In this document: piece after piece, positions 11,816-31,778 of the stretch
Layout: each line of letters opens with the position of its first letter
Numbering within the stretch: position 1 is the first letter of the stretch
From: Gammaproteobacteria bacterium
GTDB lineage: Bacteria; Pseudomonadota; Gammaproteobacteria; Thiotrichales; Thiotrichaceae
DNA length: 42,381 nucleotides
NCBI GenBank assembly: GCA_018822845.1
Contig: JAHJJD010000055.1
Location: 1 to 42,381, forward strand
Reading direction: 5' to 3'
The notes under the pieces: model-generated
Databases searched by the model: none
Told to the model about the DNA's origin: nothing
What the model saw: only the letters and a program-made list of their open reading frames with translations
Program-made: the position numbers and the translations under genes

Positions 11816-12820
11816 TCAATCTCCCCGGTATCTTGCGCCGCATTGCTTGAAACGGCGGGTGGAAAACAGCACATGGCGGGGAATGTCGCCAAGCTCCAGT
11901 TTTGCGGCGATGTCGTCGATGCAGGCCAGCACCTCATGGCGGTCTTTGCCGTGGATCATGGTGAACAGGTTATAAGGCCATACCGGCAATACGCGCGGGC
12001 GCTGGTAACAGAGGGTGACGCAATCCACGCCAGACAGCCGTTGCCCCACCTCATCCACCAACGCATCCGGCACATCCCACACCAGCATGGCGTTGGCGCG
12101 GTAGCCCAGTTCGTGGTGGCGCACCACCACCCCCAGACGTTTGATGACGCCTGCCGCCTGCATCTCGGCAATGCACTGGATCACTTCCTGTTCCGCCATC
12201 CCCACCTGTTTGCCGATTTCCAGGTAGGGGCGCTCAACTAGGGGCAGGCCAGACTGGATGGCTTCGATTAGGGGGTCATCCAAAGAGGGCGTATGCAATA
12301 CGCCCCTACCTGAAATATCTGACGTAGGGGCGTATTGCATACGCCCTCTTCCGGCATTCCCCCCCAGCCCAAACCCCAGATCAATGTGGTATTCCTTCAC
12401 CAGCGGCAATGAAATGGGCTTGTAGCCTGTGTCGCGCCCGATGCTGTCCAGCACCGCCTGCAAGCGTTCCTGATCCTCCGCCGTGACCACGAACCACAGG
12501 TTAAAGGTGTGTTCGCGCTCGTAATTGTGGTTGACTTCCGGGCGGGCGCTGACGATCCCCGCCACCCGTTCCAGTTCTGCGCCAGGCGCTGACAGCGCCG
12601 CCAGGGTGCTGGCCCCGATCCGGTTGGGGCGGAACACCGGCCCCACGCGGCTGACCGCCCCCTGTTGCTGGAGTTTTTGCAGGCAGGTGATGACCGTGGC
12701 CGCCTGGGTTTCCAGTTGCTCTGCAATACGGGCGAACGGTTGCGGGGTGAGGGGGAAATCCCGCTGGTAATCGTTGAGCAGGCGCGCTTCCAGTGGGCTG
12801 ATGTTCCGTTCCGTGTTCAT
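11816..12820 (-). CDS. nirDL: NirDL fusion, siroheme decarboxylase with a repeat-derived linker
   Basis: The 334-residue protein joins two AsnC-like siroheme decarboxylase units: a NirD-type half (HNYEREHTFNLWFVVTAED) and a NirL-type half (CYQRPRVLPVWPYNLFTMIHG). Fused NirDL occurs in other denitrifiers. Unusual here is the linker: residues 158-179 (around RMQYAPTSDISGRGVLHTP) are encoded by a 64-bp palindromic repeat that recurs in menF and nosL. The frame is kept through it, so the protein is probably functional with a longer linker. It starts three bases after the nirF stop. Confidence 0.9.
   Translation of the reverse strand: MNTERNISPLEARLLNDYQRDFPLTPQPFARIAEQLETQAATVITCLQKLQQQGAVSRVGPVFRPNRIGASTLAALSAPGAELERVAGIVSARPEVNHNYEREHTFNLWFVVTAEDQERLQAVLDSIGRDTGYKPISLPLVKEYHIDLGFGLGGNAGRGRMQYAPTSDISGRGVLHTPSLDDPLIEAIQSGLPLVERPYLEIGKQVGMAEQEVIQCIAEMQAAGVIKRLGVVVRHHELGYRANAMLVWDVPDALVDEVGQRLSGVDCVTLCYQRPRVLPVWPYNLFTMIHGKDRHEVLACIDDIAAKLELGDIPRHVLFSTRRFKQCGARYRGD
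12285..12348. repeat. Palindromic repeat, family 1 (full copy, inside nirDL)
   Basis: Two perfectly inverted 25-base arms (12285-12309 and 12324-12348; core GGGCGTATGCAATACGCCC plus CTAC) flank a 14-base spacer. The transcript would form a long hairpin. It lies entirely within the interdomain linker of nirDL and keeps the reading frame. Related copies are at 30232-30256 and 31704-31764. Confidence 0.95.
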
Positions 12821-12823
12821 GTT

Positions 12824-14008
12824 TCACAACCCCGTCTGATGCGCCCGTGAGGTGAAGAAGATTCCGCTGGGCTTCTTGACTGGCAGTTCCGTGAGCGGCT
12901 CCAGGGTTTCGGTATCGTAGACCAGCACCTTGTCCTCATCCCTGACGGACACCCACACATGCTCGCCCCGTGGGGTGAATTCCATGTGCAACGCGCCTTT
13001 GCCCGGTTTGAGCGTCTTGATGATTTGCAGGGTTTCAGCGTCAATGACCTGGATGGCGTCATTGTCCGGGAAGGCAAAATTGACCCATAGCTGCCGACCG
13101 TCAGGCCTGGCCATCACGAACACCGGCTGCCCGTGAACCTTGATTTTAGCCTGTTGCTGCCAATCCCTGGCGTCGGCGACCAGCACCTCATGGTGGCCAA
13201 CGGCTGGCAGGAAAGCGCGCCCTCCCGCCACGGCCCAGCCTTCCAGATGGGGCATTTTGTAGACGGGCAAAGCTTCCTCACCTTTGCCGTAATGGTCAAG
13301 GATGCGTTGCGGTTTGTTGTCCGTATGCCACAGATCAAGCAGCGCCAGACCGTCTTCCCCGAACAACCCGGCGATATAATAACGCCCATCCGGGGTAATC
13401 AGCGCATCGTAAGGCTGCACCCCAATGTCGGTGAATTTCTGGATGGCGGGCTTGTCCGGCTGACGCAGGTCAGCCAGCCATATTTCACCCGTGTCGTACA
13501 GGCTGAACACGAAACGCTGCCCCGGCGCATCCACCAGCCCGACCGTCTTGGAATTCTTGCCCTCCGCTATCGGGGTGGCGGGGATGTCGGCAACCAGGCT
13601 CAAATCTTCAGCAGAAAAGATTTTCACCCCGCCCGGTTCATAGTTGGAAACGGCAATCAAACTGCCATCCTGTGAAATCGCCCCGCCGATGCTGTTGCCG
13701 CCCTGCATGATGCGCTTGACCAGCTTGCCGCACAGCACGTCCACCTTGGTAAGTCCGCCATCCCTGCCAAAAATGTAGGCATGGCGGGCATCGCGGGAAA
13801 ATACCGCAGAGGCATGGGACAGGTCGCCCAGCCCTTCCAGCCGCGCCAGGGACTTGCGCTGGGTAGTGTTCACCACTTGCAGGCTGCCAGTTTCACGTTC
13901 GATGATGATGCCAAGGTCGCCCGTCCCGCGTGGCTGGCAGGCTTCTTCGGCGTGGATGGGCAAGGCCAGCAGCAGGAGCAACGGCAGCAGCAGTTTGCGT
14001 ATGTTCAT
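12824..14008 (-). CDS. nirF: NirF, periplasmic heme d1 biosynthesis protein
   Basis: The product (394 residues) has a Sec signal peptide (ending in PIHA-EEA) and a beta-propeller related to the d1 domain of NirS but without a cytochrome c domain. Family features include GTGDLGIIIERETGSLQVV, LSHASAVFSRDARHAYIFGR and HMEFTPRGEHVWVSVRDED. NirF acts late in heme d1 synthesis and interacts with NirN and NirS. The ATG at 14008 follows GGAGGAAACACC and overlaps the nirC stop, supporting this start over one 17 codons upstream. Confidence 0.92.
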   Translation of the reverse strand: MNIRKLLLPLLLLLALPIHAEEACQPRGTGDLGIIIERETGSLQVVNTTQRKSLARLEGLGDLSHASAVFSRDARHAYIFGRDGGLTKVDVLCGKLVKRIMQGGNSIGGAISQDGSLIAVSNYEPGGVKIFSAEDLSLVADIPATPIAEGKNSKTVGLVDAPGQRFVFSLYDTGEIWLADLRQPDKPAIQKFTDIGVQPYDALITPDGRYYIAGLFGEDGLALLDLWHTDNKPQRILDHYGKGEEALPVYKMPHLEGWAVAGGRAFLPAVGHHEVLVADARDWQQQAKIKVHGQPVFVMARPDGRQLWVNFAFPDNDAIQVIDAETLQIIKTLKPGKGALHMEFTPRGEHVWVSVRDEDKVLVYDTETLEPLTELPVKKPSGIFFTSRAHQTGL

Positions 14009-14355
14009 GGTGTTTCCTCCTGCAAGGCTGTCCCCGCCCGCAGTTGTTGCGCCAGCCATGTGGCTTCCACTTCACTCAGGAAGGTTTCCCAGGGGGGCAT
14101 CGGCGTACCGGCGCGACCTTTGAGGATGGTTGCCGTTAGCAGGGATTCGGGCAGTGGTTTGAGGCGTTCAGCGGTGAGTGCAGGCCCCAAGCCACCTGTC
14201 AGTTGCATGCCGTGGCAGGAACCACAGTCCTGTTTGAGCAGATAGCGGATTTCCGCCTGCCTGGAGAGGGGGATGTCCGCCACCGCGCCGGTTTCAGCCT
14301 TGGCTGGCAGCGCCATACACAGCAACACGGTCGTTACCGTTAACAGGCTTTTCAT
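14005..14355 (-). CDS. nirC: NirC, small periplasmic cytochrome c
   Basis: The product (116 residues) has a signal peptide (cleavage near PAKA-ET) and a single class I heme site C44-GSC-H48 in QDCGSCHGMQLTGGLGPAL, with a later Met ligand in GTPMPPW. NirC is a small cytochrome of nir operons that can donate electrons to NirS or serve in heme d1 synthesis. It is first in the nirC-F-DL-G-H-J unit, with an FNR-type box centred 67 bases upstream of its start codon. Confidence 0.88.
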   Translation of the reverse strand: MKSLLTVTTVLLCMALPAKAETGAVADIPLSRQAEIRYLLKQDCGSCHGMQLTGGLGPALTAERLKPLPESLLTATILKGRAGTPMPPWETFLSEVEATWLAQQLRAGTALQEETP

Positions 14356-14415
14356 GCTGTCATCTCTTGGTTATGGGAACAAGACCATGCTAGGGAACAA
14401 GGCATGATGGCAGCC

Positions 14416-14429
14416 TTGACCTGCGTCAA
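14416..14429 (-). promoter_or_regulatory. FNR/Dnr-type box for the nirCFDLGHJ unit
   Basis: TTGAC-CTGC-GTCAA lies just past the stop of the next cytochrome gene. A class II promoter here would start near 14381 and give nirC a 26-base leader. Confidence 0.8.
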
Positions 14430-14435
14430 GGGGAG

Positions 14436-14927
14436 CTAGGGCAGTTCAGGTGGTTCGGTGTTGAACTTCATGATGTACGCCAGCAGGTTGGCGCGGATCT
14501 CATCTTCAGGAATGCCACGGAAATTCATGATACGCCCCGGTACTGCCCGGTCAGTGCGGGTCAGGTAATAGTTCAGGGTGGCAAAATCCCAGCTATGCCC
14601 GGAATTTTTCATCGCTTCAGAATATTCAAAGCCTTCGGCAGTGCCTGCCTTGCGCCCGAACACATTCCACAGCAATGGCCCTTTCTGGTTGATGCCATCT
14701 TCTGCAATGTCGTGGCAGGTGGAGCACTTCTTGTCAAAGAATGCAGCGCCCGCTTCCATATCGGCATTGCGCAGCAGTTCCTTGAATTCTTCCGTCAGGG
14801 TGGGGGTGAAATGTTGCAGGGATTGGGATTCCTTGTCGTCTTCCTTACTGGCATCTTCCGCCAAACTGCTGGCAGGAAGCAGCGTGAGCAACAGGATACT
14901 GCGGAGTAACAAACCTTGTGTTGTCAT
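14436..14927 (-). CDS. Periplasmic class I cytochrome c (c2/c550-like)
   Basis: The product (163 residues) has a signal peptide (SSLA-ED), a charged linker, and a cytochrome c2-like domain: CSTCHDI (C68 to H72), GPLLWNVFGRKAG, and the Met-ligand loop GRIMNFRGI. Mitochondrial-type cytochromes of this kind carry electrons between a quinol oxidase complex and terminal reductases. The ATG at 14927 has AAGGAGACGAC upstream. It lies between the nirC promoter and hppA and is separated from hppA by a terminator-like hairpin, so it probably has its own promoter. Donation to NirS is plausible but is inferred from position only. Confidence 0.85.
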   Translation of the reverse strand: MTTQGLLLRSILLLTLLPASSLAEDASKEDDKESQSLQHFTPTLTEEFKELLRNADMEAGAAFFDKKCSTCHDIAEDGINQKGPLLWNVFGRKAGTAEGFEYSEAMKNSGHSWDFATLNYYLTRTDRAVPGRIMNFRGIPEDEIRANLLAYIMKFNTEPPELP

Positions 14928-14953
14928 GGTGTCGTCTCCTTCTCTATCTCTGT

Positions 14954-14982
14954 AAAAACGAGGGTGAGGACAACCCCACCCT
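14954..14982 (-). terminator. Rho-independent terminator after hppA
   Basis: On the minus strand the stem AGGGTG/CACCCT with a 10-base loop is followed by CG and five T. It sits between the hppA stop and the start of the cytochrome gene. Confidence 0.65.
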
Positions 14983-15010
14983 AATATTCCTACAGGAGAT
15001 GTCAAGCGGA

Positions 15011-17029
15011 TTAAGCCAGTAATGGCACGATCAACAAAGCCACAATATTGATGATCTTGATCAGAGGGTTGACCGCCGGGCCTGCCGTATCCTTGTACGG
15101 GTCGCCTACGGTGTCGCCGGTGACTGCTGCCTTGTGCGCTTCAGAACCCTTGCCGCCAAAATTGCCTTCCTCAATATATTTCTTGGCGTTATCCCAGGCA
15201 CCACCGCCAGTGGTCATGGAAATGGCGACGAAAATACCGGTCACAATCGTGCCAACCAACACCCCACCCAGTGCTTGCGCGCCCAGCGTCAAACCGACAA
15301 TCACCGGAACCGCAACTGGCAGCAGCGAGGGCAGGATCATTTCCTTGATCGCCGCTTTGGTCAGCATATCCACACAAGTGCCGTATTCGGGCTTGGCAGT
15401 GCCTTCCATAATACCGGGAATGTCACGGAACTGGCGGCGCACTTCGATAACCACGGAACCCGCTGCCCGCCCGACCGCTTCCATGCCCATCGCTGCGAAC
15501 AGGTAGGGAACCATGCCGCCGATGAACAGGCCGATGATGACCATGTGGTTGGAAAGGTCAAAGGTAATGCCCGCCTGATGGGCAGACAGGGCATGGGTGT
15601 AATCGGCGAACAACACCAACGCCGCCAGCCCTGCCGAGCCGATCGCATAGCCTTTGGTGACTGCTTTGGTGGTGTTGCCCACTGCATCCAGCGGGTCGGT
15701 GATATTGCGGATTTCTTCCGGCAATTCCGCCATTTCCGCGATGCCGCCTGCGTTATCGGTGATCGGGCCGTAGGCGTCCAGCGCCACGATGATCCCCGCC
15801 ATCGACAGCATGGAGGTGGCCGCCACCGCAATCCCGTACAGGCCAGCCAGCGAATATGCGCCCCAGATGGCCAGGCACACGGCCAGTACCGGCGCGGCGG
15901 TGGATTTCATCGAAACACCCAGCCCGGCAATCACATTGGTGCCATGCCCGGTGGTGGATGCTTCGGCAATATGCCGCACCGGCTTGAATTCAGTCGCGGT
16001 ATAATATTCGGTGATCCATACCATTGCAGCGGTCATCAGCAGGCCGATCACGGCAGAACCGTATAATGCGCCCACCGAATATTGCCCGTTATCCCCCATC
16101 ATGATGTAGGTGATCGGCAGGAACAGCACCAGCGCCGCGCCACCCGCCACTGCCAAACCCCGGTACAGCGCATTCATGATCTTGCCGCCTTCCCGCGCCT
16201 TGACAAACAGCGTTCCCAGGATGGAAGCCAGGATGGAGAAACCACCCAGTACCAGCGGATACACCACGGCGTTGCTATCCCCGCCCATCATCAGGCCGCC
16301 CAGCAGCATGGTGGCGATGATGGTGACGGCGTAGGTTTCAAACAGGTCTGCCGCCATCCCGGCGCAGTCGCCGACGTTATCACCCACGTTGTCGGCGATC
16401 ACCGCCGGGTTGCGCGGGTCGTCTTCCGGGATACCCGCTTCCACCTTGCCGACCAGATCAGCGCCGACATCTGCACCCTTGGTGAAGATACCACCACCCA
16501 GACGCGCGAAAATGGAAATCAGCGAGCCACCAAACGCCAGACCGACCAGCGCATGGGTGGCCTCCCCGACCGGTGTCCCCAGCATCAGCAGGAAGGCAAA
16601 ATAGCCTGCCACACCCAGCAGCCCTAGACCCACCACCAGCATCCCAGTGATTGCACCGCCCTTGAAGGCCACTTCCAGCGCCGCATTCAGGCCGTTTTTA
16701 GCGGCTTCGGCAGTGCGCACGTTGGAACGCACCGATACATTCATGCCGATATAGCCGGTCGCGCCCGACAACACCGCACCCAAGGCAAAACCGATGGCTG
16801 TTTCCCAGCCGAGGGCAATGAACATGACCGCGAACAGCAAAATACCAACCACCGCAATGGTGGTGTATTGCCGGTTCAGGTAGGCTTGCGCCCCTTCCTG
16901 CACCGCTTGCGCAATGCTGCGCATCCTCTCATCGCCTTCTGGGCGCGCCAACACCCAGCGGATACTGATAAAACCGTAAGCCAGTGCGGCAAACGCGCAT
17001 AAAATGGCTATCGCCAAGCCTGTTGACAT
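15011..17029 (-). CDS. hppA: Membrane-bound H+-translocating pyrophosphatase, K+-independent type
   Basis: The product (672 residues) is an ion-pumping pyrophosphatase with about 16 membrane helices and the catalytic stretch [20 protein letters not shown] plus [12 protein letters not shown]. It couples pyrophosphate hydrolysis (or its synthesis in reverse) to ion transport. The GNTTKA motif has Lys455 where K+-dependent enzymes have Ala, which marks the K+-independent proton-pumping class. The start at 17029 follows AGAGGTGTCCTG. It has no known direct link to denitrification, yet it lies between nir genes. It could save energy during respiration on low-yield substrates. Confidence 0.95.
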
Positions 17030-17095
17030 CAGGACACCTCTCGTTAACTGTGGTTCAAAAAACGTGCGGGGTGGTTAGTTATATTGTCGGTTGTA

Positions 17096-17665
17096 TTATC
17101 GGTTGCTTTTCTGCTGGATGAACGCCCCGTATTCCTTGTCGGTGCCGTTGATGTGGTTTACCAGCCAGTTTTTCAGGAAATCGGCGACACCAGCCAATGC
17201 CTTGTGGCCTTTATTGCGGTAATCCTCCACAAAGGCTTCAGCATCGGCGACCATTTCGCGATGCAGTTTCTGGTGGGCCGCCAGACCGGGGTAGCCGTAT
17301 TGCTGCATCAGTTCCTCTTCATGCTGGAAGTGGTAGCGGGTGTAATCCATCAGCTCGTTCAGGGCTTCCTGTTCAAAGTTGCCGCCGGTCTGGTAATGGA
17401 TGGCGGTCTGCAAGTGGTTGATCAGGGTCAGCAACTTGCGGTGCTCATTGTCCATTGCTTCCACACCGACGCTGTATTCATCCTTCCAGGCCACGAAATG
17501 GTGCTGTTCCCGCCAGCGGCTGTAGAATGGTAAACCCACCAAAGTGATGGTGAACAGCCACGGCACCGGGTTCAGCGGCCCCAGCGCCACGAAGGTCAGG
17601 ATGGCCGCCACCAGCAGGATACCCAGTAGCAGGACAGTCCCCAGCATTTTCATTTCTTTAAGCAT
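17096..17665 (-). CDS. Membrane-anchored bacteriohemerythrin
   Basis: The 189-residue product has two hydrophobic helices at the N-terminus (about residues 6-45) and a cytoplasmic hemerythrin domain. The domain shows all the di-iron ligands expected: H in DNEHRKLL, H-x3-E in YHFQHEEELM, HQKLH, and H-x4-D in NHINGTDKEYG. Such proteins bind O2, and some also NO. AAGGAG lies eight bases before the ATG. Its neighbours are the NirT-like fusion gene upstream and hppA downstream. It could deliver O2 or NO to membrane enzymes, or trap them near those enzymes. That role is inference. Confidence 0.88.
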   Translation of the reverse strand: MLKEMKMLGTVLLLGILLVAAILTFVALGPLNPVPWLFTITLVGLPFYSRWREQHHFVAWKDEYSVGVEAMDNEHRKLLTLINHLQTAIHYQTGGNFEQEALNELMDYTRYHFQHEEELMQQYGYPGLAAHQKLHREMVADAEAFVEDYRNKGHKALAGVADFLKNWLVNHINGTDKEYGAFIQQKSNR

Positions 17666-17693
17666 GAGTTGGACTCCTTGCGTTATCAGTAAG

Positions 17694-17756
17694 GGCGGAA
17701 ACAGCCGCCTGAAGAAGTTCCCCTCCCCAGAGTGGAGAGAGCGAAGAGAGGGGAAC
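17694..17756. repeat. Two inverted repeats between the nirT-like and hemerythrin genes
   Basis: GGCGG-N6-CCGCC at 17694-17709 and GTTCCCCTC...GAGGGGAAC at 17717-17756 form hairpins in the intergenic gap. Neither is followed by a T run on the minus strand. The second resembles the CCCCTC/GAGGGG repeats found inside menD, menF and nosD. They may weaken read-through or be another repeat copy. Confidence 0.55.
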
Positions 17757-17786
17757 CCAGGAGGAAACGTTTACCGGAAATAGCCA

Positions 17787-19634
17787 TCAGCGTTTCACCG
17801 CGTTGATTTCGATGCCTTCCTCTTCCTTGTCGAAGCCCAGCTTGTAGCCGAGGGAGACATGGTGGAAGCGTCCGCTGGTGTGGTCGTCATGGATGGCGAA
17901 ACCGAAGTTGTAAACCTGATCCGCCGCCAGGCTGACATCACCGGGCAGGTCGGATTGCAGCTTGCGGCGCACTTGCACCACCCACTTGCCACCATCCAGT
18001 TTGGCGTCAAAATCAGCACCCTGCCCGCCTTCCATGATGCGGTCAGCGAGGATGTGGCCGTCTTCGGCAGCATTCGCGCCGGACTTGAAGCGCACAATGT
18101 CCATGTAGTGCCTGGCATCCATTTCGGCTTGCAGGTCGCCTTCCGGCTTGGTTTTGTCCCAGCCGCCGCGCTTTTTGCCACCCTTGCCCTCGATCTCGAT
18201 TTCGCTGCGGCTTTCCGTGATGTATTTGTGGACTTCCTGGCCTTCTGGCGCATCCGGCATACCGTTGGCGTCGTGGTGGCAGGTTCCCCAGCATCCGGCT
18301 TGCCCGGCGTATTGCACGTCGTCGGTGGCGAACATCATCGCCAGTTTCATCGGGTTGTCGGCGTCCATCTTGCCGCCGTCCACGAATGGAACCGGGGTAT
18401 GTTCAGTGTCGTCCCACTCGAAGCGCATATACAGGTAGTCATCGTCGTGGCTGGCCTGCACCTTGACCGGGATGCTGCCGCGCTTGCCGGGAATCAGGGT
18501 GGCTTCAGGTTCCAGTTTTTCGCCGGAAACGATTCTGGAACCCATGTCAGATGCCTCTTGGTCGTGGCAGTCGAAACAACGGTCGCCTTTCTTGACCGGG
18601 CGTGCGCCACCGTGATCCTTGCCGGTCAGCACCCACTCAAGGGAGGACTGGCCAGGGTAGAACAGGGTGATTTCACGTTCCGGGGCGCTGCCCCAGTCCC
18701 AGCCTGCCCAGGCATTGTCAGTGCTGCCTGCGTTATCCGCCAGTTGTTCGGCTTTGGCGGCCTGGTTGGCTTCAGCGGCAGCTTCCGTGACCGGGTCGCA
18801 GTCCACGCAGGGGCCGCTGCTCTTGGCTGCATCGTCGGCAGCGGGGGCAGCAGCAACAACGGGGGCAGCTTTGGCGGCCTTGGCCAGAGCATCTGCCACC
18901 GCTTTGTCAGTAGCAGCCTTGGCGGACTTGTCGGCTTCAGCCTTTTTGGCTTTTTCCTCAGCTTCTGCTGTTTCGGCGGCTTTCATGCCGTCTGCGTACA
19001 TCTGTGGAACCGGGCGGATGAAAGCCGGGTTGGGTTTTTCCAGCGCCTCAATTTCTTCTTCCGACAACTGCTCGCGGACATCCTTGTGGGCGATGCCCTT
19101 GTGGCAGTCGATGCAGGTTTGCCCGGTCTCGAAAGCGTTCAGGTGTTGTTTACGGGCGCGGGGTTTCTGGTAAGCAGGGTTCATGGATTCAAAGTTGTGG
19201 CAGTTGCGGCATTCCCTTGAATCGGTTTCCTTCATCGTCGTCCATACCCGTTTGGCCATGGTCAGACGATGTTCGTCGAATTTTTCCGGGGTATCCACAG
19301 TTCCCAGCGCCTTGTGCAACAGTTCATTGCTGGCCTGGATCTTGCGGATCATCTTGTGCGTCCAGTCCTTCGGCACATGGCAGTCGGGGCAGGTGGCGCG
19401 CACACCAGTACGGTTGGAATAATGAATGGTGGGCTGGTATTCCTTGTAGACGTTTTCTTCCATCTCATGGCAGGAAATACAGAAATCCAGGGTGTTGGTG
19501 GCTTCCATGCCGGTATTGAAACCACCCCAGAACAGGATACCGACGATGAAAAAGGCCAGTGCGGAACCGATAGTTGCACCCAGCACGGTGCGCCGTTTCC
19601 AGAATGGGGGTTTTTGGGGTTGAGCCGTTGCCAT
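17787..19634 (-). CDS. NapC/NirT-type multiheme cytochrome fused to a heme-binding (ethylbenzene dehydrogenase-like) domain
   Basis: The 615-residue protein begins with one membrane anchor (residues 18-38) and a NapC/NirT quinol-oxidising domain with four CxxCH sites (C52, C82, C142, C174). An Ala/Lys/Glu-rich linker (about 215-300) follows and contains a degenerate site, CVDCD at 276-280. The C-terminal part has CFDCH at 353 and a CxxxCH (448-453, CWGTCH), within a domain resembling the heme-binding subunit of ethylbenzene dehydrogenase/DMSO-reductase relatives (VQASHDDDYLYMRFEWDD, FGFAIHDDHTSGRFHHVSLG). The anchor and hemes imply quinol oxidation on the periplasmic face. NirS next door is the likely partner, by position only. 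GAGGA precedes the ATG. Confidence 0.82.
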   Translation of the reverse strand: MATAQPQKPPFWKRRTVLGATIGSALAFFIVGILFWGGFNTGMEATNTLDFCISCHEMEENVYKEYQPTIHYSNRTGVRATCPDCHVPKDWTHKMIRKIQASNELLHKALGTVDTPEKFDEHRLTMAKRVWTTMKETDSRECRNCHNFESMNPAYQKPRARKQHLNAFETGQTCIDCHKGIAHKDVREQLSEEEIEALEKPNPAFIRPVPQMYADGMKAAETAEAEEKAKKAEADKSAKAATDKAVADALAKAAKAAPVVAAAPAADDAAKSSGPCVDCDPVTEAAAEANQAAKAEQLADNAGSTDNAWAGWDWGSAPEREITLFYPGQSSLEWVLTGKDHGGARPVKKGDRCFDCHDQEASDMGSRIVSGEKLEPEATLIPGKRGSIPVKVQASHDDDYLYMRFEWDDTEHTPVPFVDGGKMDADNPMKLAMMFATDDVQYAGQAGCWGTCHHDANGMPDAPEGQEVHKYITESRSEIEIEGKGGKKRGGWDKTKPEGDLQAEMDARHYMDIVRFKSGANAAEDGHILADRIMEGGQGADFDAKLDGGKWVVQVRRKLQSDLPGDVSLAADQVYNFGFAIHDDHTSGRFHHVSLGYKLGFDKEEEGIEINAVKR

Positions 19635-19667
19635 GTAATGTCCTCACGCTACAGGTGTGTATCGGGG

Positions 19668-19701
19668 TAAAAAGGGCGGCAGGCCGAAACCCGCCGCCTT
19701 G
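19668..19701 (-). terminator. Rho-independent terminator after nirS
   Basis: On the minus strand GGCGGCGGG/CCTGCCGCC (one G-T pair, six-base loop) is followed by C and five T. It separates nirS from the downstream nirT-like gene. Confidence 0.85.
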
Positions 19702-19721
19702 CCCGGAGGAGGCTTTCGAGA

Positions 19722-21440: not shown

Positions 21441-21561
21441 GCCATGTCTCCTCGATTCCACGGAATCCGTTGTTTGTTCAATCCGATCCTGCTGCTCCTG
21501 CCTAAAACCATATGTAAGGCAAGGATTTAGGCCGAGGTTAGAGAAATCGCAAAGTGCCCAC

Positions 21562-21575
21562 CTTGACTTGAGTCA
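21562..21575 (-). promoter_or_regulatory. FNR/Dnr-type box for nirS
   Basis: TTGAC-TTGA-GTCAA is a perfect palindrome. A class II start near 21527 would give nirS a leader of about 87 bases. Confidence 0.85.
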
Positions 21576-21602
21576 AGCGCAAAAATCAGTCAGACACTGG
21601 GG

Positions 21603-21616
21603 TTGACCTCGGTCAA
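21603..21616 (+). promoter_or_regulatory. FNR/Dnr-type box for the secreted protein-menG-menE unit
   Basis: TTGAC-CTCG-GTCAA is full consensus. A class II start near 21651 would leave about 25-31 bases before the start codon of the plus-strand gene. Confidence 0.8.
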
Positions 21617-21681
21617 GGCAACCTGGTAAGGCGCATGTTTCCATGCCCGGAGTGGCAACAAAGTAACTTGAGGTTATGGCT

Positions 21682-24169: not shown

Positions 24170-24512
24170 CAAACACATGCACGGTGTTGACGGTGACACA
24201 ATGAGTCTCTGCCGTATTGAAAAACCGGTATTCCAGCGTCATGGAAGACCGCCCGGTTGCCTTGACTGCCAGTTCCACCCTGACCTCATCCCCATGCTGC
24301 AGGGGATGGTGGTAGTCCGCTTCCGCATGTACCAGCGGAATACGCTCCCCCACTTCAACTATCCCGCCAAGTTCCAGCCCCTTTTCCTGCATAAACATTT
24401 CATAGGCATCGTGGGCATGGGTGAACACATGGGCAAAAAACAGGATGCCCGCCCGGTCAACCTGATGGAACGGGACGCGGAAACAATAAATGAAAGGTTT
24501 AGCCTGCATCAT
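24126..24512 (-). CDS. menI: Hotdog thioesterase, probable 1,4-dihydroxy-2-naphthoyl-CoA hydrolase
   Basis: The product (128 residues) has the 4-hydroxybenzoyl-CoA thioesterase-type signature VDRAGILFFAHVFTHAHDAYE, with the catalytic Asp, and the usual beta-strand ending. Members next to men genes hydrolyse DHNA-CoA, the step between MenB and MenA. It is the last gene of the long minus-strand run and overlaps menC by 14 bases. Two ATGs are possible (24512 and 24509). The family is sure; the substrate is inferred from context. Confidence 0.78.
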   Translation of the reverse strand: MMQAKPFIYCFRVPFHQVDRAGILFFAHVFTHAHDAYEMFMQEKGLELGGIVEVGERIPLVHAEADYHHPLQHGDEVRVELAVKATGRSSMTLEYRFFNTAETHCVTVNTVHVFVRKTASDNPACGWQ

Positions 24513-25485
24513 GGTTTAACTGTAGCATCCCGCCTACAATCCGGGGAGCTTCGGTCACATCCTTGGCCAGCCAGACGGAGGTCGCCAACCCGTGCGTCAA
24601 ACCGTTCCCCAACACTGCTGCCAGATGCGCGGTTGCCCGCACCCCCACAGCACTTTCCACCACTGTCGTCACCACGCATTCTTTGCCTGCTGCCATCGCC
24701 CGCTGTGCCAGCCGCAAAGTAGGGACAAACCCGCCCAGCACTGCCGGTTTCAGTACCAGCCGCTGTGCCGGATGGGCGGCAATGCCATGCCGCCAGTGGG
24801 GCAGGGATTCATCCAGCGCCAACGGGAACGGGACTAGCGCCTGCAAAGCCAGCCATTCGTCTGCCCCGGCCTGTTGCAAGGGTTCCTCCACGGATTCGAT
24901 GGGCAGGTCAGCCACTTCCCGCAGGAACTGGCGAGCCAGCGGGAAAGGCCATGCCCGGTTGGCATCCAGCCGCAGGCGTACACCAGCAGGCAGGGAATCC
25001 ACCAACAGGTGCAGCTTGCCCAGTTCCTGCCGCACACTACGCAAACCGACCTTGAGCTTGAGGATGCTGAATCCTTCTGCAACCGCTTGGGCTACCTGCT
25101 GTGCATCGGTTTGCATCAGGTTGCCCAGCATGGCGTTGACCGGAATAGCATTCAGGGCGGGCGGATGGCGGGGACACAGTGCCAGCAGTGCCGTTTCAAA
25201 AGCGTAACGGGCCGCAGGCGTGACATGCCCCAGAGCTTCCAACGCCGTCACTATCGGCAAGCCCCGCGTGTGCCGTTGTAAGTGTTGCAGGCTTACCCAC
25301 GCCTGTGTGGCTGTTTCTGTCCCCGCCTCTGGCATGGGTGGGCAATCGCCGTAAGCTACATTGCCATCCGCTGTTTTCAGGCACACCAACCAGCCCCGGC
25401 GGCAAGCCATGCTGCCTTGGCTGCTGCGCCACGGCATCCGTAATGGCAGGGCGTAAGGGCGTAGCATGATGCGTTTCAGCGTCAT
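24499..25485 (-). CDS. menC: MenC, o-succinylbenzoate synthase
   Basis: The product (328 residues) is an enolase-superfamily enzyme with the catalytic pair in LKLKVG, metal ligands in RLDANRAW, VEEPL and ALDESL, and the second Lys in LVLKPAVLGG. It dehydrates SHCHC to o-succinylbenzoate. It overlaps menA by four bases at its start and the thioesterase gene at its end. Confidence 0.88.
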   Translation of the reverse strand: MTLKRIMLRPYALPLRMPWRSSQGSMACRRGWLVCLKTADGNVAYGDCPPMPEAGTETATQAWVSLQHLQRHTRGLPIVTALEALGHVTPAARYAFETALLALCPRHPPALNAIPVNAMLGNLMQTDAQQVAQAVAEGFSILKLKVGLRSVRQELGKLHLLVDSLPAGVRLRLDANRAWPFPLARQFLREVADLPIESVEEPLQQAGADEWLALQALVPFPLALDESLPHWRHGIAAHPAQRLVLKPAVLGGFVPTLRLAQRAMAAGKECVVTTVVESAVGVRATAHLAAVLGNGLTHGLATSVWLAKDVTEAPRIVGGMLQLNHDAG

Positions 25486-26351
25486 TGGCAGCAGACCTCC
25501 CCAATGGCGAGCAACAGCCCCAGCACCAACTGGAACTGCGCCGTCAGTGGCAATAAGGGATTAAATTCCCCCGGCTGTTGCACCCGGCAAAAAGCCCTGA
25601 GCAGAAACACAACCCACGGTAAAGCCAGCAAGGGTAAATATTTCCCCAGCCCGCTAGCCGCAACGATGAGGAACGGCAACAGCAGCAACCCGGCATATTC
25701 CGCACGGGAAAAGCCTTCGCCCAGCAGCACTGCCAGCGTGCGCCGCCCTGCCAGCCGGTCGGATTCCCGGTCGCGGGTATTATTGACCACCAGCACCGCC
25801 GCTGCGGGCAAACCCATAACACAGCCCGCCAGCAATGCCGAGGCATCCACCCGCAAGGTTTGCAAGTAATAACTGCCCGCCACTGCCACCACGCCAAAAA
25901 ATACCAGCACAAAAACTTCCCCGAACGGTGAATGGGAAATGGGGTATTTTCCACCTGAATAAGCAGCCCCAGCCGCCAGTGACAGCAAGCCCGCTACCAG
26001 TATCACCCAGCCGCCCACCGCCACCAGATAAACGCCAAGGCAAAAAGCCAGCAGAAAACAAAGTTTCACCCCCTGCATCACCTGTGCCGCTGTCAACAGC
26101 CCCGCAGCCGTCACCCGTAATGGCCCCAGCCGATTGGCTGTATCCACCCCATTGGCATGATCGGCGGCATCATTGTGCAGGTTAGTCCCTATCTGGATCA
26201 GCATCGCTGCCAGCAAAGCCGCCAGCGCAGGCAGGACATGCAACACATGAGTCTGGGCAAACGCCAACGCGCTCCCTACCACCACCGGGATCACCGCCAT
26301 CCCCAGAGTCTTGGGGCGCACTGCCAGCAACCACGCCTGTAACTGCGGCAT
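25482..26351 (-). CDS. menA: MenA, 1,4-dihydroxy-2-naphthoate prenyltransferase
   Basis: The product (289 residues) is a UbiA-superfamily membrane prenyltransferase with eight to nine helices. The first Asp-rich motif is NLHNDAADHANGVDT and the second is NNTRDRESDRLAGRRTLAV. VRPKTLGMAVIPVVVG at the N-terminus is typical of MenA. It attaches the isoprenoid tail to DHNA in the inner membrane. The ATG shares a base with the menB stop (TGATG). Confidence 0.92.
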   Translation of the reverse strand: MPQLQAWLLAVRPKTLGMAVIPVVVGSALAFAQTHVLHVLPALAALLAAMLIQIGTNLHNDAADHANGVDTANRLGPLRVTAAGLLTAAQVMQGVKLCFLLAFCLGVYLVAVGGWVILVAGLLSLAAGAAYSGGKYPISHSPFGEVFVLVFFGVVAVAGSYYLQTLRVDASALLAGCVMGLPAAAVLVVNNTRDRESDRLAGRRTLAVLLGEGFSRAEYAGLLLLPFLIVAASGLGKYLPLLALPWVVFLLRAFCRVQQPGEFNPLLPLTAQFQLVLGLLLAIGEVCCQ

Positions 26352-27175
26352 CAGGGACGGCGCGGGAAAGTTGAAAAATCCGGCGGACGCTTTTCCACAA
26401 AGGCATTACGCCCTTCCTGCGCCTCCGCCGACATATAAAACAGCGCAGTGGCATTGCCCGCCAGTTCCTGGATTCCAGATAGCCCATCAGTGTCGGCGTT
26501 GAAACCGGCTTTCAGCATCCGCAAGGCCGTCGGCGAATGCTGCAATATCTGCCTGCACCAGCGCACGGTTTCCGCCTCCAGTTCCGCCAGTGGCACGACT
26601 GTGTTCACCAGCCCCATCTGCAACGCTTCCTCCGCACCGTATTGGCGGCACAGGAACCAGATTTCCTTGGCCTTTTTCATGCCGACGGTACGCGCCAGCA
26701 AACCTGCCCCCAATCCGGCGTCGAAACTGCCGACCTTGGGGCCAGTTTGCCCGAAACGGGCATTATCCGCAGCAAGGCTCAGGTCGCAGACCAGATGCAG
26801 CACATGCCCGCCACCGATGGCGTAGCCTGCCACCATTGCCACCACCGGCTTGGGTAGGGTGCGTATCTGGCGCTGCAAATCCAGCACATTCAGGCTTTGC
26901 ACCCCCTGCCCATCGCAGTAGCCACCGTGTTCGCCGCGCACTTTCTGGTCGCCGCCGGAACAGAACGCCTCATTGCCCTGCCCGGTGAGGATGATGACGC
27001 CAATCTCCGGCGACACATGCGCATGGTGGAACGCCCGCATCAGTTCCTGCACGGTTTCCGGGCGGAAGGCATTGCGCACCTGCGGGCGGTTGATGGTGAT
27101 TTTGGCGATGCCATCGCCACTGTGATGGTAGAGGATGTCCTCGAATGCCTGACCTGTAACGGGTGTCCAGTCCAT
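26351..27175 (-). CDS. menB: MenB, 1,4-dihydroxy-2-naphthoyl-CoA synthase
   Basis: The product (274 residues) is a crotonase-fold enzyme with the MenB signatures [36 protein letters not shown] and [13 protein letters not shown]. It closes the second ring of the naphthoquinone. The start at 27175 is preferred to the ATG two codons earlier, because AAAGGA, which overlaps the menD stop, is then seven bases away. It is the third gene of the menF-D-B-A-C run. Confidence 0.95.
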
Positions 27176-27186
27176 AACCATTTCCT

Positions 27187-28875
27187 TTAAAGCATGACTT
27201 CAATCACACACGTCCGCTCTTGCTCCAGCGCATGGTCGAATGCCGCCGCAAAACCGTCCGCGCCATGGATGCGCTCAAACCCCAGCCCGTACAGTTGCGC
27301 CACCAGCGAAAAATCCAGCCCGGTCGGGGTCAGCCAATAACGTTCAAATTGCGCATGCTCCAGCCTGGCCTGCGAAAGCTGGCGGAATATCCCGCCACCC
27401 GCATTGTTCAGCAACACAATGACCGCATTGGCCTGTTTTGCCAGCAGCAAGCCATTCATGTCGTGGAAAAAGGTCAAATCACCGAGCAAGGCCACGGTTT
27501 TGCCGGGATGTACCGCCGCCATTCCCAGCAGGGTCGAGATATTGCCGTCAATCCCGCTCGCCCCACGGTTGGCAGCAATCTTCAAGCCCTTCATCCCATT
27601 GCCGGAATAATGGTCGAGGTGACGGATGGGCATGGAGTTACCGGAAAACAGCAGTGAACCCTCCGGCAAAATGCTGAGCATCTGGCGGATAATGAGCGCT
27701 TCGGCTCGCGGGTCAGCATCCAGTACTGCCCCGTTTTCCCGTTCCGCCTGCATGAAATTTTCCAGCCACGACCGTGCGGCAGGTTGCGGATTGAGTGTGG
27801 CAAGCTGTTGGCAAAAAGCCTCCGGGGAAGCCCTGACCATCAGTGCCTGTTGGAAAAGCGGGTCAGACCAGCCCCCCTGCATATCCACCACAATATGCAA
27901 AGGAGACTGGCTGCCCGACAAGTATTGCTGCAAGGCACGGGATACGGGCATCGTGCCAAAACGCAGCACCCATTGCGGGGTGTGGCTACCTGTAAAGGTG
28001 ACATCCCGCAGGAAAGCATCGTAACGGGACAGCAGGTGTCCACTGACATGCTCCCCGAAACGCAGGTTGGACAGGGGGTCAGCAAACACCGGGGCAGCCA
28101 GTGTTTGCGCCAAGGCCATCAGGGCGGATGGGAAAGCGTCGGCGTAATCGCCTTCGCCGCACACGATCAGTCCCGGTTTGCCGCTGATGGCATCACATAT
28201 CTGGGCTAGTTGGGCGGGTGGGGGGAAAGAAACCCCTCCTAACCTCCCCTTGTCAGGGGAGGGACAAGAATGTGCCGCACCTCTTCGCTCCTCCCCTGAT
28301 AAGGGGAGGCTGGGAGGGGTTTCTTCAGGCAGCAACGGTTCGCGCAACGGCACATTCACTTGCACCGGCCCCGGCTTCAGCCACAGGCTTTCCTGCGCCA
28401 CTTGCACTGCCAGTTGGTGCACACGCCGCAATGCATTGTCCGCACCGTCAGCCTCGGAAAGTTGGTGGAATGCCCGCACCTGCGACCCGAACAGCTTGAT
28501 CTGGTCAATGGTCTGGTTTGCGCCGCATTGCTGCAATTCCCACGGGCGGTCAGCCGTCAGCAGGATCAGCGGAATGCCGGTCTGGCTGGCTTCGACCACG
28601 GCAGGAAACCAGTTGGCGGCAGCCGTGCCGGAGGTACATTGCAAAGCGACAGGTTTCCCACTGGCTTTTGCCATGCCAAGGGCGAAGAAGGCGGCACTGC
28701 GTTCATCAATCTGTACCCAGCAACGCAAGTCGGGGTTGAGGTCGGCTGCCAGTGTCAGCGGGGTATTGCGCGAACCGGGCGAAATGACGATTTCTTCCAC
28801 CCCTGCCTCCACTAGCCCTGCCAGCAAGGCGGCGCACCAGCGCAGGTTGACGGTTCCGGTATCAATTGCCTGCAT
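27187..28875 (-). CDS. menD: MenD, SEPHCHC synthase, with an inserted repeat-encoded loop
   Basis: The product (562 residues) is a thiamine diphosphate enzyme that joins 2-oxoglutarate and isochorismate. It shows [14 protein letters not shown], the catalytic Glu region [33 protein letters not shown], and the ThDP/Mg motif [13 protein letters not shown]. Residues about 183-216 ([15 protein letters not shown] and [10 protein letters not shown]) are encoded by a CCCCTC/GAGGGG inverted repeat inserted in frame between the PP and middle domains, where a loop could tolerate it. The start overlaps the end of menF by 14 bases. Confidence 0.93.
28228..28325. repeat. GC-rich inverted repeat, family 2 (inside menD)
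   Basis: Imperfectly inverted arms (GAAACCCCTCCTAACCTCCC at the left and GGGAGGCTGGGAGGGGTTTC-type sequence at the right, allowing for mismatches) each carry an inner hairpin (CTCCCCT...AGGGGAG). The reading frame of menD continues through it. Confidence 0.85.
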
Positions 28876-30319
28876 CCAGCAGCCTCCGCAGTGTATCCAG
28901 TTTCAGTTCGGTTTCATCCCATTCCTGCTGGGGGTCGGAATCCGCCACGATACCCGCCCCGGCAAACAGGTGGGCTTCCCCGTCGTGCAGCAGGGCGCAA
29001 CGCAATAGCACCGAGAGTTCGCCCTCCCCGTCATGGCGTAACCAGCCGACCCCGCCGCTGTACCAGCCACGCCGATGGTTGCCATGTGTGCGCAGCCATT
29101 GCCGCGCCGGGGTGGCGGGGAAACCGTTGATGGCGGGGGTGGGGTGCAGGCATTCCAGCAAGTCCAGTACGTGGATGTTGGGCAGTGCCTTGCCGCTGAC
29201 TTGCGTCCACAAATGTTGCAAATGTGGCAGGGAAAGGGTCAGCATCTGCTGGCCGACGCTGACTTCGCTACACACCTTGGTGAGTGCCTGACGGATAGCT
29301 GCGACCACGGGCGGGTGTTCCGCTTCGCGCATCCGGGCGGGGAAATTCGCCCTACCGTGCTTGCGGGCAATGGTTCCAGCCAGCGCATCGCAGCTCACCC
29401 TGCCATCACGCAGCGATACCAGCCGTTCGGGAGTAGCTGCCAGTAACCAGCCGCTGCCAAAGGAAACTGCCAGCAGGGTACAGGAACGGTAATGCTGCTG
29501 CATCCGGCGCATCAGCAGGGCGGCGTCAACACCGGGGGTAAGCGGCTGGCAGGTGCTGCGGGCGACTACCAGCTTGCGCAGTTCACCGTGGTGGAGGGTG
29601 GCTTTGGCCTGGTTGACCAGGGTTGACCACGGGGGGAACCCCTCACCCCCCAACCCCCTCTCCCTCAAGGGGAGAGGGGGCGCAAGAGGTTCTTCATCTT
29701 TAGCCCCTCTCCCCTTGAGGGACGACGCTGAAAGCGGCTGGGTGCGGGGTTGGGGTGAGGGGTAAGAACCGCTAGGTTCCGCTACCAACCCCACCGCCAA
29801 TTCCTGCCACCGTACCCACACCTCCTGCCATGCCTTGCCGCCAAGCCGCGCCGTCAATGTCAGTGTTGTGCGCTGCTCCCGCTGCTCCAGCACCAGTTCC
29901 GGCACGGTCAGCAGGGCATTGGGAAAACCCTGCCATTCACTTGCCTCATCCCCATCCGTGGCATCAAACGCATAGCCCGTCATGGCAGCAATGGGCATGG
30001 CTTCCCCGACCTTGTGCCAGTTGCCATCCAGTTGGGCAAGCTGCTGTTTCAGCTCGGCAAAGCGGTTTTCCCCTGTCGCCACACAGCGGGCAGCTTCACC
30101 CAAGCCTACCACCCGATGCTGTTGCTCAGGCCGATGCCAATAAAAACAGGGTTGGGGGAAATCGGTACGCAAGACAGGCAGTGGACACAATCCCTGCGGC
30201 ACCACCAGCGTAACACTGAACAGCCCCTCCCGTAGGGGCGTATTGCATACGCCCTCTTCAACACCTTCGTCAACCAACCGCCGCCGCAACCACGCCAGCA
30301 ACGGCATTTCCGGCAGCAT
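28862..30319 (-). CDS. menF: MenF, isochorismate synthase, with two inserted repeats
   Basis: The product (485 residues) is a chorismate-utilising enzyme with a good C-terminal catalytic domain: LRKLVVARS, LLAATPERLVSL, DALAGTIARK, LHPTPAINGFP and GAGIVADSDPQQEWDETELK. It turns chorismate into isochorismate, the first step to menaquinone. Two repeats enter its poorly conserved N-terminal half in frame: a 25-base half palindrome (residues about 22-30) and a 130-base GC-rich repeat (about 184-228). The ATG at 30319 lies two bases after the nosY stop, so it may be translated from the nos transcript. Another ATG at 30307 is possible. Confidence 0.9.
   Translation of the reverse strand: MLPEMPLLAWLRRRLVDEGVEEGVCNTPLREGLFSVTLVVPQGLCPLPVLRTDFPQPCFYWHRPEQQHRVVGLGEAARCVATGENRFAELKQQLAQLDGNWHKVGEAMPIAAMTGYAFDATDGDEASEWQGFPNALLTVPELVLEQREQRTTLTLTARLGGKAWQEVWVRWQELAVGLVAEPSGSYPSPQPRTQPLSASSLKGRGAKDEEPLAPPLPLRERGLGGEGFPPWSTLVNQAKATLHHGELRKLVVARSTCQPLTPGVDAALLMRRMQQHYRSCTLLAVSFGSGWLLAATPERLVSLRDGRVSCDALAGTIARKHGRANFPARMREAEHPPVVAAIRQALTKVCSEVSVGQQMLTLSLPHLQHLWTQVSGKALPNIHVLDLLECLHPTPAINGFPATPARQWLRTHGNHRRGWYSGGVGWLRHDGEGELSVLLRCALLHDGEAHLFAGAGIVADSDPQQEWDETELKLDTLRRLLDAGN
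29637..29768. repeat. GC-rich inverted repeat, family 2 (inside menF)
   Basis: AACCCCTCACC at the left and GGTGAGGGGT at the right bound the element, with inner copies of CTCTCCC(CT)CAAGGGGAGAG. It encodes PSPQPRTQPLSASSLKGRGA and LAPPLPLRERGLGGEG, peptides of the type also seen at the start of NosD. Confidence 0.88.
30232..30256. repeat. Palindromic repeat, family 1 (single arm, inside menF)
   Basis: One 25-base arm identical to the right arm of the nirDL copy (GTAGGGGCGTATTGCATACG and CCCTC). It is read in a different frame here (EEGVCNTPLR). Confidence 0.92.
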
Positions 30320-30321
30320 CT

Positions 30322-31230
30322 TCAAGGCAAATCCCCACGCTGGAACAGGAAATACCCCAGACCCGCACACCCCATCCCCAACACAACCGGGTATAACAGT
30401 GCCCACAGCAAATAAGCGGTATTACCAAAAATATCCAGGATCAGGTAAGCCGAAGGCCCCAGCATCACCAGTTGCGGGTCAAACAACATCATTGACGCAG
30501 TACGGAACACTTGCAGCGGGTTCGCCAGCGCAAGCGCAATCACGTTATCAGGTTCCATCCCACCATTGACCAATGCCCCCAGCAGGATCAAATCCAGGAA
30601 CAGCAACAACACCAGCCACAGGATAAAAGCCACACCCTGCGCCACATCCGCCGCCCGCACCAGGGTAGAAATCAACATGCCGATGCCCAGAAAACACCAC
30701 GCCAGCGACAGCAAAAACCCGGTATAGAACAACACTTGCGTCCACGGAATATCAGCCCCCTTGAGTGCTGCCCAGACAACCGCCACCAGCATCGCCAACA
30801 CCACCGGCAGGAACACCACCAAAAAACGCCCCGCCATCTTGCCCCAATACCACGCAGACAAGGACACGGGCAGCGACAGCAGGTATTCAAAAATCCCCGC
30901 TTCCCGGTCGCCCGCCACCGAACGCACCGTGGTCAGCAACACAAAAATCGGCAAAATCGCCATCGTGATTTGCAGGTAAGTCACCAACAGACGTGACAAC
31001 CCGGTGAAACCCATCACCCGCGATTCCGTCAGCCCCGTCATGAACAGCGCCACCACAATGCCACCAAAGATCAGGCTGTAAACAATGAACCAGCGCGAAC
31101 GCAGCGATTCATTAATGTCCGCCATCGCCGTCAACCGCAGATGATGCAACTGCCCACTGTCCGGCCATTTAGGGAAACGCAGGTTCAGCGCAGTCAGCGA
31201 GGGACGCGCAGGAAGGTTTAAGGCTTTCAT
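30322..31230 (-). CDS. nosY: NosY, ABC transporter permease for N2O reductase maturation
   Basis: The product (302 residues) is an ABC-2-type permease with six membrane helices and the NosY-like segment SVAGDREAGIFEYLLSLPVS. With the ATPase NosF it acts with periplasmic NosD in assembling the CuZ sulfur-copper centre of NosZ. Its start overlaps the nosL stop by four bases, and menF begins two bases after its stop. Confidence 0.9.
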   Translation of the reverse strand: MKALNLPARPSLTALNLRFPKWPDSGQLHHLRLTAMADINESLRSRWFIVYSLIFGGIVVALFMTGLTESRVMGFTGLSRLLVTYLQITMAILPIFVLLTTVRSVAGDREAGIFEYLLSLPVSLSAWYWGKMAGRFLVVFLPVVLAMLVAVVWAALKGADIPWTQVLFYTGFLLSLAWCFLGIGMLISTLVRAADVAQGVAFILWLVLLLFLDLILLGALVNGGMEPDNVIALALANPLQVFRTASMMLFDPQLVMLGPSAYLILDIFGNTAYLLWALLYPVVLGMGCAGLGYFLFQRGDLP

Positions 31231-31778
31231 CGGGCGGGTTCCTCAGCGGGTGGAGGGTGCGCAGCCCCTCCGTGGATATTGTATTTTTCTTCAACTTTAT
31301 AGACGTGTGCCTTGGCTTGGGTGAAATCCAGCGTACCCGGCTGTTGCTCAACTTGCGCACCCAGCCCGTAGGCCATCGGGGTAATCTTGTTCGGGGCATA
31401 CCACGCTTTGCGGGCATCAATCCACTCACCGCTGTTGAAATCTGTCACCCAGATTTCCACCGCCGGGTTATCCTTCCACGGCTGCTCATCCAGCCAGATG
31501 ACGGCGCAACCAATGTCGTCAAATTTATAAACCTTGGTCTTTTCCCCCGGCACACCGCCGCGTATTTGCGCCGAATAATGCCGGTCACTGACCGCCATGG
31601 CACAACGCACACAGGTATCGCTATCCCAACGGACTTTCTCTGGCCCCGTGTCGGGTTTGCCGGAACAGGCGGTGAGGAATAGCAGCAACACCAATAGAAG
31701 AATGGGCGTATGCAATACGCCCCTACCGTTGTCATCTTCGTAGGGGCGTATTGCATACGCCCTCTTTTCTTTATTCAT
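31227..31778 (-). CDS. nosL: NosL, outer-membrane copper chaperone lipoprotein with repeat-derived N-terminus
   Basis: The product (183 residues) is a lipoprotein with lipobox LTAC-SG and the copper-binding CVRCAMAV motif of NosL, which delivers Cu(I) to NosZ. Residues about 5-25 (RAYAIRPYEDDNGRGVLHTP) are encoded by a family 1 palindrome lying between the start codon and the hydrophobic core of the signal peptide. The start at 31778 has GGAGGAGAT just upstream and overlaps the nosF stop, so the repeat really lies within the translated gene. The long, charged n-region is unusual but should still be exported. Confidence 0.88.
   Translation of the reverse strand: MNKEKRAYAIRPYEDDNGRGVLHTPILLLVLLLFLTACSGKPDTGPEKVRWDSDTCVRCAMAVSDRHYSAQIRGGVPGEKTKVYKFDDIGCAVIWLDEQPWKDNPAVEIWVTDFNSGEWIDARKAWYAPNKITPMAYGLGAQVEQQPGTLDFTQAKAHVYKVEEKYNIHGGAAHPPPAEEPAR
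31704..31764. repeat. Palindromic repeat, family 1 (full copy, inside nosL)
   Basis: Arms at 31704-31726 and 31740-31764 are inverted copies of the nirDL element, with a different 13-base spacer. It encodes the n-region of the NosL signal peptide and is in frame. Confidence 0.95.

Follow-up and report, generated by a model that had tools for sequence, protein, structure and literature searches.

How does one short palindromic repeat come to be read as protein sequence in three genes, nirDL, menF and nosL, on a single stretch of bacterial DNA? The stretch (hereafter the window) is the 42,381-nucleotide contig JAHJJD010000055.1 of assembly GCA_018822845.1, from a gammaproteobacterium of the family Thiotrichaceae. 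The repeat, here termed F1, is a dispersed GTAG-type repetitive extragenic palindromic sequence (REP), mostly paired as a REPIN (an inverted REP doublet). We consider it highly likely that REPs and REPINs of the type belonging to subclass 2.4 of the REP-associated tyrosine transposases (RAYTs, also called TnpAREP) insert widely, that selection removes the damage, and that the survivors are left in tolerant linkers and N-termini. F1 would be mobilised as single-stranded hairpins by a cognate RAYT of this subclass and would insert widely over the genome; selection would lose most frame-breaking or domain-breaking insertions, and what survives would be near-neutral peptides, decaying by substitution, loss of an arm and inversion in place. 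In the window, F1 copies make up the linker of NirDL, the signal n-region of NosL and a portion of the N-terminus of MenF; palindromes of two other families have been accommodated likewise in menD, menF and nosD.

The F1 repeat and its window copies

The full F1 element reads AAGA-GGGCGTATGCAATACGCCC-CTAC, a variable spacer, and GTAG-GGGCGTATTGCATACGCCC-TCTT, the arm GTAG-GGGCGTATTGCATACGCCC consisting of a GTAG foot, an 8-bp stem and a 3-nt loop. GTAG stands directly at the foot of the stem-loop in most of the F1 copies listed (GTAG+GGGCGTAT-TGC-ATACGCCC), as it, or GTGG, does in GTAG-type REPs. It faces inward in most pairs and outward at loci L037, L038 and L041. Two arms are present at 30 of 34 F1 loci in the window's own genome, the arrangement of a REPIN, with one arm at three loci and four at one. 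Within the window the core GGGCGTATGCAATACGCCC gives ten matches at up to three mismatches, that is, five places on both strands, against a chance mean of 0.02 in 100 shuffles.

The preliminary description of this DNA had placed a full pair in nirDL, a single arm in menF and a second pair in nosL, all in frame and in more than one reading frame, and these positions were confirmed. Between them, NirDL, MenF and NosL read the AAGAGGGCG arm in every one of the three frames (RMQYAPT, VCNTPL, RAYAIRP), the translated residues being ..GRGRMQYAPTSDISGRGVLHTPSL.. in NirDL, ..EEGVCNTPLR.. in MenF and ..KRAYAIRPYEDDNGRGVLHTPIL.. in NosL. An inverted-repeat scan of the window revealed three more coding palindromes, from two families other than F1 (F5 in menD; F6 in menF and nosD). 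The elements and their genes are as follows (palindromes carry no strand).

11816..12820, minus strand: nirDL, siroheme decarboxylase fusion, 334 aa, open across the insert
12283..12350: F1 REPIN in nirDL (two inverted GTAG-REPs, GTAG inside), in frame in the NirDL interdomain linker; arms 12283-12316 and 12317-12350, cores 12287-12305 and 12328-12346
27187..28875, minus strand: menD-type thiamine pyrophosphate (TPP) enzyme, 562 aa, open across the insert
28227..28325: F5 palindrome (GAAACCCCTCC..CTCCCCTGATAAGGGGAGG) in menD, in frame, aa 184-217
28862..30406, minus strand: menF, chorismate-binding enzyme, 514 aa as listed, putative GTG start
29661..29722: F6 palindrome (CCCCTCTCCCTCAAGGGG type) in menF, in frame, aa 229-249
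30232..30258: single F1 REP arm (core 30236-30254) in the N-terminal part of menF, in frame (EEGVCNTPLR)
31227..31778, minus strand: nosL-like gene, ATG start read from the sequence; the open reading frame (ORF) list gives 31227-31964 with an upstream TTG
31696..31770: F1 REPIN in nosL, between the start codon and the hydrophobic core of the lipoprotein signal; arms 31696-31726 and 31740-31770
34418..35806, minus strand: nosD, 462 aa as listed, open across the insert
35706..35777: F6 palindrome in nosD, signal-peptide n-region

Pfam recognised AsnC_trans_reg2 (144.8 bits) and NirdL-like_HTH in NirDL and Chorismate_bind in MenF; NosL scored 20.5 bits, below the NosL cut-off of 24. A PDB search matched the NirD-like structure 4ch7, to which the NirDL linker aligns poorly.

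The window's genome (G000) is a 4.0-Mb assembly and one of the 16 genomes in the genus set used here. The whole-genome search for the arm that the preliminary description had called for found 81 core matches (39 forward and 42 reverse, up to two mismatches) at 67 distinct places, counted by hand, with coding and extragenic copies among them; the reversed pattern, searched in G000 as a control, gave no match. The GTAG-extended repeat was found in 15 of the 16 genus genomes (up to three mismatches), G007 and G010 having one match each, and some of the single matches are imperfect. G005 has its REPs at the positions found in Thiothrix lacustris DSM 21227 contigs, and Thiothrix is therefore very probably the genus of the host. 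G000 is a draft in 130 contigs, and repeats in such an assembly might be artefacts of assembly or binning. The chance of this is negligible: the same arrangement in the single-contig genome G006 and in other assemblies speaks strongly against it, and the F1 copies differ in their spacers and flanks.

Landing sites in relatives

What occupies these places in other species? The preliminary description had proposed DNA that spreads by entering tolerant spots of genes, and had suggested alignment with close relatives. Five of the six coding palindrome sites in the window are comparable with the sister species G011, where two are empty and three carry a different palindrome. NosL of G011 lacks the insert and its NosD is empty at the F6 site. 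At the N-terminal MenF site a different REP stem lies in near-identical surroundings, the second menF site has a different, long GTAG..CTAC palindrome, and the menD site has another palindrome, F9-like by eye. Four genomes from three other genera of the family have NirDL homologues (47-53% identity) whose linker at this place is unrelated and free of the F1 residues. Spread into tolerant spots is thus supported by the insert-free NosL and by these linkers, and also by the dispersal of F1 through genome and genus and by the same loops carrying other palindromes or none in other species. The same residues in unrelated lineages, which would have spoken for the opposite, were not seen among the relatives compared. 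A full NirDL was seen in none of the 12 other genus genomes searched (G001, G010 and G011 lay outside that search); REP residues can mislead homology searches, and the NirDL query matched many REPs.

Beyond the window, gene context was surveyed in 30 stretches of G000, and alignment of orthologues from the genus placed five further F1 copies in genes: in CobB, NuoG, Mfd, a GH2 enzyme and an unnamed 732-aa protein (L031). The last had no Pfam match; we presume a likeness to NorD/CbbO. Orthologue segments came from up to 15 genomes per gene, own included, among the matches listed, and a genome missing from a set does not mean that the gene is absent from it. Palindromes were assigned to families F1-F9 by sequence pattern, with the following result.

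Loop of the unnamed protein: F1, F5; other or none in 3 rows
Loop of CobB: F1, F4, F5, F6, F9; other or none in 3 rows
Loop of GH2: F1, F5; other or none in 4 rows
Loop of Mfd: F1, F2, F3, F5, F6, F7; other or none in 3 rows
Loop of NuoG: F1, F5, F6, F8; other or none in 1 row

Two to six families thus share each of the five loops, differing by species and partly lacking a GTAG foot. Some of the rows given as other or none may contain decayed palindromes or additional ones, e.g., in CobB of G014 and G004; Mfd of G005, G009 and G010 and GH2 of G004, G007, G011 and G015 are insert-free. No stop codon occurs in any of the 65 rows of the five sets (13+15+9+15+13, own rows included). Perfect stems of at least 9 in 59 orthologous loci amount to 21 hairpins in 20 loci, and 20 of these 21 lie at the insertion site, with insertion sites making up 6,447 of the 86,859 bases scanned; the sole off-site hairpin is at L102 1102-1126. 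Judged by Pfam borders, the inserts of NirDL, CobB and NuoG fall between domains, and the orthologue-checked genic copies lie in linkers, N-termini and length-variable loops. F5 is itself dispersed, being present in all 16 genus genomes with a control of zero (genome-wide counts were made for F1 and F5).

Each insert lengthens its protein by roughly 10 to 35 residues, in a flexible part. The plain reading is one of selection, in which few loops tolerate 20-45 extra residues and arrivals there can stay. Hot sites might instead be set by the DNA, palindromes inserting in or beside older ones, or recombination through shared ends converting one into another. Families F1 to F4 indeed have a common outer stem (GGGCG..CGCCC) around differing inner stems, and at the first MenF site G000 and G011 differ by a changed stem in near-identical surroundings; yet F5 to F9 use the same loops though their sequence differs from F1, each classified loop sequence holds one family without nesting, and insertion points differ by several bases within a loop, native empty loops having no palindrome (by eye). 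We regard such DNA-directed targeting as unlikely. Selection acting on wide insertion remains the preferred account, and probably at least nine families, F1-F4 among them sharing their outer stem, have come to lie in frame in the same small set of loops in different species of this genus, so that palindromic mobile DNA of almost any kind would be the chief supplier of new protein sequence at these loops, with turnover by replacement, arm loss and in-place inversion.

Individual sites give glimpses of this turnover. The spacer of the CobB REPIN is GATCAGAGG in G005 and the exact reverse complement, CCTCTGATC, in its close sister G006; the element appears to have been inverted in place between the two, with the frame kept. 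At a site in TmcA, G006 has one arm (VGAYCIRP) and G005 the opposite arm (EEGVCNTPL), a pattern expected if the two genomes had each kept only one, but not the same, half of a pair. A flank tree with Fitch counts gave 4 to 9 state changes per site (5, 9, 4, 9 and 5), which are allele changes and not counts of insertions. F1 is patchy on this tree and a GH2 spacer is common to G000, G001, G005 and G006, so interspecies exchange or repeated loss must play a part; alleles that move between species or are repeatedly lost could also fit recombination at DNA-set sites. Transfer of Mfd among G000, G014 and G002 was considered, and flank identity does not set these three apart.

That sister species have a different palindrome, or an empty site, at the same position also bears on whether the inserts have been domesticated, that is, whether mRNA hairpins or added peptides are retained for tuning expression or protein function. 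We judge this very unlikely, given moreover that the same arm is read in differing frames between genes and that arms decay, e.g., in NuoG of G004. It is nevertheless consistent with some inserts being common to distant lineages (F1 in CobB and GH2), with the replacement of native loop residues by the insert in GH2 and Mfd, and with the view that REPs are active in transcripts (PMC3733652).

Genomic distribution and candidate mobiliser

A strict codon-based test found 5 of 34 F1 loci in G000 and 11 of 33 in G006 to be in frame in coding sequence, against 1165/2000 and 1108/1872 (58-59%) of random 66-bp segments. F1 copies are therefore depleted from coding sequence, and with 29/34 and 22/33 loci outside the in-frame coding class they are mainly extragenic, as GTAG REPs are. 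The G006 set comprised 30 stretches from the F1 matches listed, with one listed match (3676041) left out. The test undercounts genic copies, and reading of ORFs suggests a larger genic share in G006. Further candidates there include an in-frame F1 in an ORF resembling TmcA (Pfam) and in three others that we take to be NadE, ArgS and Maf. In G000, F1 lies within long Pfam-bearing ORFs at L032 (TIR/NB-ARC-like) and L057 (AAA) and lengthens a Dus ORF at L033, all three being candidate genic copies.

A larger repeat was also seen around the element at L035, L050, L055, L058, L059 and L060, with the REPIN within or beside it. Its ends resemble GTGCACGAAACAAC..GTTGTTTCGTGCAC and are partial in some, and several have a variant stem, GGGCGTATGCCATACGCCC; it is perhaps a composite miniature inverted-repeat transposable element taking the REPIN along. 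Separately, the exact 23-mer GTAGGGGCGTATTGCATACGCCC occurs in at least 117 stretches (L161-L240 among them) whose record titles come from many phyla, including cyanobacteria, Bacteroidales and Chloroflexi.

Which enzyme would move F1? The PF01797 profile found no match in G000, and NF047646 matched in 13/16 genus genomes, three of them over the cut-off and G000 and G005 below the curated one; Pfam gave no match on the G005 RAYT, the profiles used not being specific to subclass 2.4. With the G005 RAYT as query, 7/16 genus genomes match at E <= 1e-5. A RAYT search at phylum level was positive in 9/398 genomes, G000 among them, adding nine new loci to the loop-flank test described below. The G005 RAYT (L061) is flanked by F1, as the gene is by its REPs in subclass 2.4 REPtrons. 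Other RAYT loci among the nine examined in the genus are flanked by other stems, and F1 was absent from the other genus RAYT-type loci fetched (L071-L100, L336-L344).

In 8 of these 9 loci the HuH motif is closely followed, in frame, by a REP-like stretch that matches the locus's own flanks. Mismatches occur in several such stretches, and those of L081 and L092 are degenerate. Examples of genes in which the RAYT's own REP follows HuH in frame are:

L061 3434-4045
L080 1471-2040
L087 1111-1758

The RAYT loop matches its own flanks with a total score of 650, compared with 342 (sd 22) when permuted, and none of 20000 permutations reaches it; 32 of 41 loci were scored, nine lacking a motif were dropped, and a few of the scored pairs are near-identical. 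Individually, 16/32 loops score their own flank at least as high as every other flank, ties counted and L300 tying at chance level, and several loops, e.g., those of L301 and L321, hold no REP. An own REP in frame within the RAYT is already described for subclass 2.4 and is not new (PMC6006769), which helps to file the F1 system there. The same feature was seen in part of the loci from other Gammaproteobacteria (L299-L324). Thirteen equal-scoring RAYT-profile matches in G010, every one within an open frame of 145 aa, probably represent an IS200-type element in multiple copies.

Several points weigh against the proposed history of F1. An F1-flanked RAYT was not found in G000, and G005 alone among the 16 genus genomes has one; F1-rich genomes without such a gene (e.g., G006, G008 and G014) need RAYT loss or another mover. 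F1 may or may not be mobile in G000 at present, with a RAYT of this kind as its putative mover. The strict test missed 3 of 8 orthologue-checked genic copies in G000 (MenF, NosL and Mfd), so its counts are approximate and make F1 look somewhat more depleted from coding sequence than it is. It also classed four loci as frame-shifted (L037 in G000; L070, L356 and L359 in G006). The first of these reads as a gene boundary, and broken genes are possible among F1 loci, e.g., at L070, L356 and L359. Finally, L064 2782 of G006 was classed as a stop on the minus strand, and a 984-aa plus-strand ORF runs through it.

Relation to known elements

The preliminary description had likened the repeat to the palindromic elements of Rickettsia. 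The likeness in behaviour stands, since those too lie in frame in many proteins; membership does not, as they carry a CGTC tag and have no dedicated transposase known (PMC3733652), whereas F1 belongs to GTAG-tagged, RAYT-linked REPs and REPINs. F1 was accordingly rejected as a Rickettsia palindromic element on its foot, GTAG and not CGTC.

GTAG REPs are described as having a GTAG foot, a stem-loop, inverted dimers (TT type, GTAG inside) and an association with RAYTs; some lie within ORFs, with over half of these inserts encoding 20-30 aa, and different REPs occupy about one recB site in two Xanthomonas species (PMC3733652). F1 has the same foot, stem-loop, inverted dimers and intragenic in-frame copies. 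Beyond that account are the five sites with two to six families and the palindromes without a GTAG foot, and its text does not mention Thiothrix. In Stenotrophomonas maltophilia the REP is a 16-nt palindrome broken by 3 nt with GTAG directly before it, a layout like that of F1 (PMC8266576). In subclass 2.4 (RAYT group 4) the base of the stem has three G-C pairs and the REPs have a single or a double foot; they flank the gene and also lie in frame within it, between the HuH and Y motifs (PMC6006769). The F1 system shares the G-C stem base, the single or double foot and the flanking and in-frame REPs; unlike subclass 2.4 REPtrons, it combines F1 in 15/16 genus genomes with an F1-flanked RAYT in G005 only. 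In Pseudomonas the inverted REP doublet is likewise the dispersed unit, but REPINs there are almost wholly extragenic, 14 of 1,067 16-mers overlapping genes (PMC3116915); of the F1 copies a noticeable fraction is coding.

REPs in frame within genes and within RAYTs are thus already published (PMC3733652; PMC6006769). No title or abstract opening was found on palindromes in Thiothrix or on landing sites shared by several families, the literature having been judged mostly at that level. Neither this host genus nor such a density of different palindromes at shared protein loops turned up in that literature. As a kind, such elements are known; what is notable and striking is that sister species carry different palindromes at matching protein positions.

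Several families per site, together with empty sites, form natural replicates for measuring insertion tolerance and the rates at which inserts are gained and decay. For annotation they carry a warning that REP-coded residues do not equal conserved function. The case also shows how short mobile palindromes turn into protein outside Rickettsia: the host is very probably a free-living sulfur bacterium, and the enzymes concerned serve respiration, cofactor synthesis and DNA repair.

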